DNA from: Rheinheimera pacifica
Lineage (GTDB): Bacteria > Pseudomonadota > Gammaproteobacteria > Enterobacterales > Alteromonadaceae
DNA length: 64,000 nt
Assembly: GCF_900108485.1 (NCBI RefSeq)
Contig: NZ_FNXF01000001.1
Span: 186,001-250,000 of the forward strand
Direction of reading: 5' to 3'
Both the position numbers and the translations under genes were made by a program. The notes under the pieces are model-generated. The model saw only the letters and a list, made by a program, of their open reading frames with translations, was not told the origin of the DNA and made no database searches. Of the stretch, positions 57,584-62,694 are shown piece after piece. Numbering within the stretch: the first letter of the stretch is position 1; each line of letters begins with the position of its first letter.

Positions 57584-58234
57584 ATGATCAAGTCGTTTCA
57601 ACGTGAATTTATTGAGTTTGCGCTGTCGCGTCAGGTATTAAAGTTTGGCAGCTTTACGCTGAAATCCGGCCGTACCAGCCCGTACTTTTTTAATGCCGGG
57701 CTGTTTAACACCGGCGGTGACCTGGCCAAGTTAGGCCGCTTTTATGCGGCGGCGTTGCAGGATAGCGGCCTGGCGTTCGATGTACTGTTTGGCCCAGCTT
57801 ATAAAGGTATTCCTATTGCCACCACTACAGCTGTAGCATTGGCGGATCATTATAACCGCGATGTCCCGTACTGCTTTAACCGCAAAGAAGCGAAAACCCA
57901 TGGTGAGGGCGGTAACTTAGTCGGCTCACCGCTAAAGGGCCGCATTATGCTGGTGGATGATGTCATTACCGCCGGTACCGCGATTCGCGAATCGATGCAG
58001 TTAATTCAGGCGCAGGGCGCTGAGCTTACCGGTGTGTTGATTGCACTGGACAGGCAAGAGCGTGGCCAGGGTGAGCTGTCGGCGATTCAGGAAGTGGAGC
58101 GTGATTTTAATACTAAAGTCATCTCGATTATCAGCCTGCCGGATTTAATCAGCTATTTGGCCGATAAGCCGGAACTGGCGCAGCATCTGGATGCGGTGAA
58201 AGCTTATCGCGCACAATATGGTGTTAACACTTAA
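57584..58234 (+). CDS. pyrE: Orotate phosphoribosyltransferase
   Basis: The 216-residue enzyme joins orotate with PRPP to give OMP in pyrimidine synthesis. Visible are the N-terminal [41 protein letters not shown], then [15 protein letters not shown] (the flexible catalytic loop) and the PRPP-binding motif [19 protein letters not shown]. It is second in the rph-pyrE operon. In E. coli an attenuator lies between the two genes; the 20-base gap here is too short for one. A 113-base folded repeat begins 23 bases after the stop and may serve as the end of the transcript. Confidence 0.97.
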
Positions 58235-58256
58235 GAAAAATCGGGCTTTAGAGTAG

Positions 58257-58369
58257 GGTACAGTGTCAGGAAATGCTTTCTGCACCGGCTTCAAGGATCA
58301 CATCCTTGTGCCCTCTCAGCCTGCGCGGCATCCTTGCCGCTGTTCCGAAAGCACACCTGACCCTGTACC
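58257..58369. repeat. 113-base folded element, copy 1 (pyrE-dgkA gap)
   Basis: Outer arms GGTACAG, TCAGG and TGCTTTC pair with GAAAGCA, CCTGA and CTGTACC. The 80-base core (58274-58353) has hairpins CAAGGAT-CAC-ATCCTTG and CGGCA-TCCT-TGCCG. The core matches copy 2 at 74 of 80 positions in direct orientation, but the outer arms have different sequence in the two copies and pair in both. Confidence 0.85.
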
Positions 58370-58419
58370 TGACGCTTCGACCTTAGCCCGATACACAACA
58401 GCAATGAAGGACAGCAAAG

Positions 58420-58791
58420 ATGTTAAAGCCAAACGGCGTTGGTTTAGGACGAATTATCAGGGCAGCAAAATGTTCGATGCAGGGTTTTGCCGCCAGCTGG
58501 AAGTTTGAGTCTGCCTTTCGTCAGGAAACCATCTTAGCCGTTATCTCTATTCCGCTGGCCGCCTGGTTGGCCACGTCAGTCAGCCAGTTTGCGCTGCTGG
58601 TTAGCGTATGGTGTTTAGTGCTGTTGGTGGAGCTACTGAACTCAGCGATTGAATCGTTAACTGATCGCGTAAGTTTAGAGCGGCATGAACTGTCGGGCCG
58701 GGCCAAAGATATGGGCTCGGCGGCGGTGTTTGTCAGCTTAGTGATAGTGGCGCTGGTATGGGGCGCGGCGCTGTACGAGCGCTTTGTTTGA
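58420..58791 (+). CDS. dgkA: Diacylglycerol kinase
   Basis: The 123-residue integral membrane enzyme phosphorylates diacylglycerol left from membrane-derived glycan synthesis. It has three hydrophobic helices and the family signature LVELLNSAIESLTDRV, with GRAKDMGSAAVFVSLV near the end; ESAFRQE near residue 30 is the surface helix that carries part of the active site. AAGGA precedes the ATG. It is flanked on both sides by the 113-base element, so gene and elements could move or be transcribed as one unit. Alone between pyrE and slmA, its position is unusual compared with E. coli. Confidence 0.94.
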   Translation: MLKPNGVGLGRIIRAAKCSMQGFAASWKFESAFRQETILAVISIPLAAWLATSVSQFALLVSVWCLVLLVELLNSAIESLTDRVSLERHELSGRAKDMGSAAVFVSLVIVALVWGAALYERFV

Positions 58792-58842
58792 ACCGGAGTT
58801 GAATTAGGAAGGGATTAGGTGTGCTTTGCTGCCTTGGCGTAA

Positions 58843-58955
58843 AGCAGTGTGGCTGGAGATGCTTTCTTCGCCGGCTTCAAGGATCACATCCCTGTGCCCT
58901 CTCAGCCTGCGCGGCATCCATGCCGCTGCTACGAAAGCACACCAGCCACGCTGCT
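58843..58955. repeat. 113-base folded element, copy 2 (dgkA-slmA gap)
   Basis: AGCAG, TGGCTGG and TGCTTTC pair with GAAAGCA, CCAGCCA and CTGCT. The core (58860-58939) carries hairpins around CACATCCCTGTG and CGGCAT-CC-ATGCCG. It has the same length and direction as copy 1. It lies 14 bases past the slmA stop, and after dgkA, so it may end both transcripts. Confidence 0.85.
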
Positions 58956-58968
58956 CTCACGTTATGAT

Positions 58969-59559
58969 TTAGCTAAACAGAGCAGTTTGTAGTTGTGCCC
59001 ACTGATTAGCCCAGTGCTGGGTTGGTAAGCGGGTAAAACCGGAGCGGACAAACTGGCTTAACTTACCCTCTACCGAGGCCAGTAGCAGGTTAGCCAGCTC
59101 GCCTTCGTCGATACTAAAGCCCTTACCTTCACGCAGCTTACGCTCGCGCAGGCATTGCTTTAACTGGGTTTCCAGTTTTTCAAATAACTGGGCTACCCGT
59201 TCTTGCAGACGTTCCTGCTCGCCTTGCAGGGCATCACCGGTTAAAATACGGCAGATACCGGGGTTACGCTCGGCAAAGACTAATATCAGCTGCAGAATTA
59301 ACTCGGTGCGGCTGGCGGTGTCTTTGTGCTCGTCCAGAATGCCGTTGATGCGTGAGAGCAGCGTATCTTCAATAAACTCAATTAAGCCTTCAAACATCCG
59401 GGCCTTACTGGGGAAATGCCGGTATAGCGCGGCTTCAGACACACCAACTTTTTCTGCCAGTGCGGCTGTGGTAATACGCTGGCCGTTATTGCTTTGCAGC
59501 ATGGCCGCAAGGGCCTGCAAAATGTCTTCTTTACGATTACTGCGACGGGGTGCCGGCAT
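58969..59559 (-). CDS. slmA: Nucleoid occlusion factor SlmA
   Basis: The 196-residue TetR-type protein binds chromosomal SlmA sites and stops FtsZ assembly over the nucleoid. It begins with [68 protein letters not shown], the expected HTH, and ends [23 protein letters not shown] as in E. coli SlmA. dut lies one base upstream, so the two are co-transcribed, as in most gammaproteobacteria (coaBC-dut-slmA). Confidence 0.95.
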
Positions 59560-62446: not shown

Positions 62447-62602
62447 ATGCGCGATAAAATCCGTTTAGTCTCTTCTGCAGGCACTGGTTTCTTCTATACA
62501 ACTACGAAGAACAAGCGCACCATGCCAGAAAAGATGGAAATCAAAAAGTTTGATCCTAAAGTGCGCAAGCATGTGATTTTCAAAGAAGCGAAAATCAAGT
62601 AA
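62447..62602 (+). CDS. rpmG: Ribosomal protein L33
   Basis: The gene encodes 51 residues, [20 protein letters not shown] followed by [17 protein letters not shown] and [14 protein letters not shown], the standard gammaproteobacterial L33 (cysteine-free type, so zinc independent). AAGGAA is seven bases before the ATG. It follows rpmB by 11 bases and is closed by a strong terminator. Confidence 0.98.
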
Positions 62603-62612
62603 TCGAACACAG

Positions 62613-62643
62613 AAACCCGGCCAACGCCGGGTTTTTGCTTTTT
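62613..62643 (+). terminator. Rho-independent terminator after rpmG
   Basis: AAACCCGGC and GCCGGGTTT form a nine-pair stem with loop CAAC, followed by TTTTT and, after GC, another T run. It begins 11 bases past the rpmG stop. Confidence 0.95.
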
Positions 62644-62694
62644 AAAGCCTACCTAAGTTACTATGCCGCAAAGCTTTTGCCGACAGGTATGGTT

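Follow-up and report, generated by a model that had tools for sequence, protein, structure and literature searches.

A TwoAYGGAY-like repeat family of Rheinheimera with two GGA-loop hairpins, a candidate CsrA-binding RNA

The gaps on either side of dgkA in Rheinheimera pacifica hold two copies of a folded element. Comparative analysis places them in a repeat family of a single bacterial group and indicates that the fold is preserved. Read from the minus strand, each copy has a variable outer stem and an inner stem that carry a pair of hairpins with A-NGGA-U loops. Judged by sequence, the closest known relative of the element is the RNA motif TwoAYGGAY (RF01731). The reading we favour, with a probability of about 0.6, is that the element is a two-site CsrA-binding RNA repeat of 3' and intercistronic regions. 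The two copies lie in a 64,000-nt stretch of the R. pacifica genome, referred to here as the window, and the features concerned are collected in Table 1.

The first-pass annotation had described two 113-base copies (58257-58369 and 58843-58955) in equal orientation, with cores identical at 74 of 80 positions and with outer arms that differ in sequence between the copies, yet pair left with right in both. All of this was borne out. The best-matching 80-base stretch is 58273-58352 in copy 1, and identity over the whole length is 93/113. The model-match boundaries given in Table 1 are slightly wider than the 113-base limits. Copy 2 is sense to slmA and lies 11 nt past the slmA stop codon. In the 64-kb window the covariance model found these two copies only, the next match scoring 10.6 bits, and an Rfam scan of the window gave no match above the gathering cut-off. 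At 62561-62644 (L085:9308-9391) the window also weakly resembles the Pseudomonas rnk leader (33.2 bits against a cut-off of 55), which probably reflects no more than a hairpin rich in GC together with a run of T. The dgkA reading frame was without a match in an NCBIfam search at 1e-20.

Table 1. Features of the window around the two elements (positions in the window)
Feature	Position	Strand	Evidence or remark
Copy 1, type I element (pyrE-dgkA gap)	58254..58371	-	R1 model 131.4 bits; antisense to both neighbouring genes
Copy 1, hairpin 2 tip	58299..58310	-	CACAAGGATGTG, CsrA-type loop ACAAGGAUGU
Copy 1, hairpin 1	58325..58340	-	GCGGCA-AGGA-TGCCGC
Copy 2, type I element (dgkA-slmA gap, genes convergent)	58840..58957	-	R1 model 133.2 bits
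Copy 2, hairpin 2 tip	58885..58896	-	CACAGGGATGTG, CsrA-type loop ACAGGGAUGU
Copy 2, hairpin 1	58911..58926	-	GCGGCA-TGGA-TGCCGC
Remnant of a former inverted partner element, reduced to its 5' arm	58804..58827	+	Orthologous gaps; intact in relatives G013, G002 and G024
pyrE (orotate phosphoribosyltransferase), flanking gene	57584..58234	+	NCBIfam TIGR00336, 219.1 bits
dgkA, flanking gene	58420..58791	+	ORF; name from the first-pass annotation; orthologues at the equivalent place in related genomes
slmA (nucleoid occlusion factor), flanking gene	58969..59559	-	NCBIfam NF007015, 293.9 bits

As RNA, the minus strands of copies 1 and 2 are predicted to fold at -62.4 kcal/mol (z -7.2) and -68.5 kcal/mol (z -7.5), energies equalled by 0 of 200 shuffles for either copy; the plus strands fold well too (z -6.8 and -6.7, respectively). 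RNAalifold and pair counts on an alignment of 56 copies (A2) place the two GGA-loop hairpins on a shared closing stem. Of the cells in this alignment, 95.3% are paired, compared with 36.6-48.9% when the partner columns are slid, and changes on both sides are found at 21 of 35 pairs. The outer stems covary as well, the covariation score is 0.392 against 0.154 in shuffles, and none of five covariation measures was reached by any of 500 shuffles. The earlier proposal that the folded form is maintained is thus upheld, although the two conserved GGA loops of the minus strand, which point to CsrA, had been missed.

Eight gene-pair sites were tested alone, and seven contain two-sided changes: ilvD-ilvA (7 pairs in 18 copies), a TonB-receptor site with the gene named by eye (7 in 9), yidC-mnmE (5 in 5), slmA-dut (5 in 11), dgkA-slmA (5 in 11), queA-tgt (3 in 10) and cysC-cysQ (3 in 7). 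The dgkA-slmA and ilvD-ilvA sites mix two former neighbours, so that some of the two-sided changes counted there distinguish paralogues. No two-sided change occurs in the antisense set at pyrE-dgkA (7 copies). Because two-sided changes are present inside single sites, the covariation is not merely a subfamily difference.

The pairs also carry information on the strand. On the GGA strand, G-U cells number 54 and A-C cells 7, three G-U-rich columns being excluded. Counted as site-distinct events in an alignment fitted to the model, from which 7 of 149 rows were dropped for length or missing context, the G-U:A-C ratio is 28:5 for the sense and 15:1 for the antisense class, 22:8 for copies between convergent genes and 2:0 for the rest. 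As the copies share descent and are not independent, the significance of these class tests, and of the position tests described below, serves as a guide only. A role solely as a DNA cruciform would give roughly equal G-T and A-C, so the observed excess of G-U favours the GGA strand; this strand seems to be the constrained, folded molecule. Strand-specific folding of single-stranded DNA would favour G-T over A-C as well. Further, the excess speaks against template-switching correction of the arms, and transcription-linked mutation bias is an unlikely source of it because antisense copies share the excess.

Among 145 distinct copies, loop 1 retains NGGA in 143, and so does loop 2. The exceptions are two copies reading TCGA in loop 1 and two in which the script did not locate loop 2. 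The 56 copies of alignment A2 were gathered with a loop-containing pattern (at most 6 substitutions), and the later copies come from the covariance model R1, built from those 56 copies and tolerant of loop changes. SELEX with CsrA yielded the consensus RUACARGGAUGU, in which ACA and GGA do not vary and GGA is preferably located in a hairpin loop (PMC4347634). The core of this consensus, ACANGGANGT, is present in 142/145 distinct copies, and 143/145 contain at least two ANGGA, both in predicted loops, in agreement with the pattern of CsrA sites. The longer ACARGGATGT is found in 101/145, with 10 occurrences outside type I elements in 2.24 million nt (both strands). The two GGA of a module are 28 nt apart and hairpin lengths are nearly constant, which fits the bridging of both loops by one CsrA dimer. 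All 31 Rheinheimera genomes carry a csrA gene; the G025 protein matches the solved CsrA 2bti_A at each of its first 48 residues and shares its first 58 residues with the CsrA of the source genome (G000). The structure 1y00 is among the other hits, and the E. coli CsrA is nearly identical. By these tests, the element looks like a CsrA-binding RNA.

TwoAYGGAY was reported in 2010 with no function assigned (PMC2864571), and was predicted in 2014 to bind CsrA, with validation said to be in progress (PMC4333381). In the literature searched, mostly outside subscription journals, no paper was found on the present repeats or on a test of the TwoAYGGAY-CsrA link. Other CsrA-related sRNAs have been described in Alcanivorax (PMC9788540). 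At a loose Rfam threshold, the full RF01731 model (1-168) aligns to the minus strand of both copies, scoring 22.8 bits (E 1.7) for copy 1 and 28.8 bits (E 0.073) for copy 2 against a gathering cut-off of 43. Across the genus, 3 of 31 genomes reach E 0.001, the best match being 37.7 bits and none lying above the cut-off. Like TwoAYGGAY, the element has two GGA-loop hairpins on a common stem, and model R1 recovers an RF01731 member of another genus (L045; 69 bits to RF01731, 27.9 to R1). Tandem G-A mismatches are reported in a hairpin stem of TwoAYGGAY (PMC4333381); in hairpin 2 of the element, GA stands opposite GA in more than 90% of the rows of alignment A2, and these bases may or may not form non-standard pairs.

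Unlike TwoAYGGAY, the element often has AGGGAT or AAGGAT rather than AYGGAY in loop 1, and it recurs in many copies, which have a well-conserved core and partners in inverted orientation. T or C precedes GGA in 64/145 distinct copies in loop 1 and in 9/145 in loop 2. As it falls below the RF01731 cut-off and departs from the strict loop sequence, the element is classed as a TwoAYGGAY-like variant and not as a member. A match of 50.2 bits to RF01731 in another genus of the family (L047:1501-1663) has its core flanked by a perfect inverted repeat of nearly 50 bp.

The sponge RNAs CsrB, CsrC, RsmY and RsmZ share with the element the GGA in hairpin loops and the presumed binding of CsrA. However, the sponges have many sites per RNA, whereas the element has two per module and dispersed copies, and any promoter or terminator of the element is hypothetical. 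RsmZ (RF00166) was not found in the 31 genomes. A CsrB-like match below the Rfam cut-off is present in 31/31, one or two in each, and is likely the unannotated CsrB of Rheinheimera. The match in the source genome, on the plus strand at L230:501-804 (G000 C40:52700-53003), scores 38.8 of 71 bits and contains 15 GGA; that of G007 contains 22. With a CsrB-like match in every genome, a further sponge is not needed, which argues against a sponge role for the element.

The two copies of the window have numerous relatives. Of the two outcomes by which the first-pass annotation would have been refuted, a lack of copies in related genomes and an outer stem devoid of covariation, neither was observed. 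A covariance-model search of the genus gave 213 matches at E ≤0.001 in 31/31 genomes, with 1 to 14 matches per genome. The best 150 of these all score at least 100.8 bits, and the other 63 may include weaker relatives. The source genome has 7 matches, 6 of them with at least 104 bits. A family-wide search found matches in 33 of 118 genomes, namely 4 of the own genus, 3 of the sister genus g66 and 26 others; those of g66 are strong, and those of the other 26 are weak (23.7-34.8 bits among the matches listed). Copy 1 had no match at E 0.001 in plasmid and phage collections, and viral contigs held no exact match to a 42-base core pattern. Transport as plasmid or phage cargo was rejected on these grounds.

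The context of the copies was analysed in a sample of 156 (one truncated, 24.8 bits) on 108 stretches from 30 genomes, derived from the best 150 of the 213 matches. The sample omits G023 and six weak matches (21-25 bits, <110 nt), several of which are of a second element type described below; genes were called with our own script, which missed some. The 156 copies are distributed over 36 gene-pair sites, and 13 of these contain at least 4 copies. Shared sites include ilvD-ilvA, queA-tgt, cysC-cysQ, yidC-mnmE and slmA-dut, and the identified neighbours serve ordinary metabolism or housekeeping, without any obvious connection to Csr. Of the 126 copies of the main clade, 97 have the facing stop codon at most 60 nt away, with a median of 23. 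Codirectional genes flank 62 sense and 22 antisense copies, convergent genes 41 copies and divergent genes a single one. Across all clades, divergent gaps make up 1 of the 119 gaps of 100-800 bp that contain a copy and 74 of the 210 that do not. Main-clade copies are thus mostly found behind stop codons and shun gaps with promoters. In a second clade (G003, G005, G016 and relatives), the 30 copies include 20 antisense ones and 4 in divergent gaps of more than 800 bp; many copies form arrays, and several are on stretches carrying tRNA genes. On L100, L098, L101 and L144 (G003, G016), nearly identical copies are arrayed at a spacing of ~320-390 bp. One copy in G003 (C5) is ~0.8 kb from csrA.

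A position behind stop codons raises two explanations that make no use of CsrA. The element could act as a 3'-end RNA stabiliser or processing barrier through its stems alone, as proposed for REP hairpins, the GGA loops being incidental or binding another protein. Its very stable folds, and the copies located right after stop codons between codirectional genes at ilvD-ilvA, queA-tgt, cysC-cysQ and yidC-mnmE, are what such a function predicts. We nonetheless consider it quite improbable: the outer stems vary freely while NGGA is kept in 143/145 copies in each loop, and a simple clamp could do without the pair of loops. It is hardly credible that the element is an intergenic terminator or attenuator of transcription acting in both directions, a role that would account for strong hairpins past stop codons and for the third or so of main-clade copies between convergent genes. 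A run of at least 4 T within 30 nt follows the element on the GGA-strand side in 23/156 copies and on the other side in 16/156, compared with 20% of 910 control windows. With no U-tract enrichment on either side, the suggestion in the first-pass annotation of a termination signal is not supported as far as intrinsic termination is concerned, and an intrinsic terminator is rejected.

A second element type, type II, likewise built with a pair of GGA-loop hairpins, accompanies type I at some sites; its copies were picked up via a GGA-containing pattern. They are inverted relative to the nearest type I element in 20/20 cases, although 18 of the 20 are at ilvD-ilvA and cysC-cysQ and so represent few independent events. 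Inverted partners are also visible as remnants. In the dgkA-slmA gap of G013, one element is intact and a piece of another is present in opposite orientation; the window shows the reverse, the other element being intact and a piece of the first persisting as the remnant of Table 1 (blastn, 32 nt of which 8 are flank, 100% identity, inverted). Element remnants were seen in 33 of 131 gaps, 30 inverted and 3 in the same orientation. Two rows (L133 4923-5976 and L178 4977-5918) were dropped as each reflects an intact neighbouring copy beyond a missed gene, which leaves 28 of 31 remnant-bearing gaps inverted; short remnants are less secure because the arms are near-palindromic. The inverted remnants imply that the elements often started out as inverted pairs, in the manner of BIMEs; species then came to differ in orientation at one site by losing one or the other partner. 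Inversion in situ through the paired arms was dropped as an explanation since orthologous gaps hold remnants of a second, oppositely oriented element. With inverted pairs, transcripts of either strand would display a GGA module. Outside types I and II, 37 of 153 intergenic perfect tetraloop hairpins (L082-L189) have an NGGA loop, so that further GGA-loop families probably exist; one further GGA-loop hairpin was seen by eye in the dgkA-slmA gap of G007.

This arrangement bears on the earlier description of the element as REP- or MITE-like, of which the intergenic location and the inverted pairs hold good, and the REP tags, size, RAYT linkage and conserved terminal repeats do not. Like REP/BIME repeats, the copies are intergenic palindromes near coding regions, form inverted pairs and show complementary stem changes. 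However, the element is 118 nt long with a branched fold, in contrast to 20-40 bp for REP. REP/BIME repeats are GTAG- and CGTC-tagged (PMC3733652); in the type I alignment A2, the outer 21 positions on either side contain no invariant or nearly invariant column that could be a terminal tetranucleotide. Terminal inverted repeats of the MITE type are absent in that the outer arms differ between sites while pairing, and no target-site duplication was seen by eye in orthologous gaps. Y1 transposase genes are present in 27/31 genomes. No Y1 (RAYT) gene is near any copy among the 150 of 213 matches listed, the smallest copy-Y1 distance on one contig in that set being ~16 kb (G006 C40), and the genomes without a Y1 match (G007, G012, G025 and G029) hold 4, 11, 3 and 5 element matches. 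A REP driven by a RAYT is not supported by these observations.

More broadly, the family could be a mobile, or formerly mobile, REP/BIME-like DNA repeat in which single-stranded DNA hairpins serve as transposase signals, the GGA loops are recognised and any effect on RNA is a by-product. The repetition, the frequent inverted pairing, the arrays in G003 and relatives and the Y1 genes of most genomes would agree with this. We regard it as unlikely in view of the Y1-less carriers, the missing linkage and terminal tag, the clustering of copies at shared sites and loops that fit the CsrA consensus.

In the two-site CsrA reading, the outer and inner stems would hold the two ANGGA-loop hairpins in RNA of the GGA strand, and one CsrA dimer would grip both loops of a module. 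The stem sequence would be free to vary provided that pairing holds. Modules just past stop codons would act as dispersed CsrA sites that make the stability or processing of the host mRNA CsrA-dependent, and those at 3' ends could guard the mRNA end or mark it for decay. Jointly, the modules may draw off some CsrA and lower its free concentration. The antisense copies, which keep the loops and the G-U bias, are the least explained point of this reading. For copy 1, as for the 22 of 84 codirectionally flanked main-clade copies that are antisense, a sense transcript would need its own promoter or read-through; such copies may be independently transcribed, or may be recent survivors of pairs. Also counting against the reading are the antisense majority and the divergent-gap copies of the second clade, the neighbours without a Csr connection and the lack of two-sided change at pyrE-dgkA.

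A wider proposal, which we put forward only tentatively and consider doubtful, is that the repeat family spreads two-site CsrA modules, as inverted pairs, into the 3' regions of housekeeping operons, with their total setting free CsrA alongside CsrB. Binding by CsrA would in addition make the family an example of regulator sites dispersed as repeats. Rheinheimera, with its large set of well-aligned copies, a CsrA that hardly departs from the solved ones and strong covariation, makes the predicted binding of TwoAYGGAY by CsrA directly testable.
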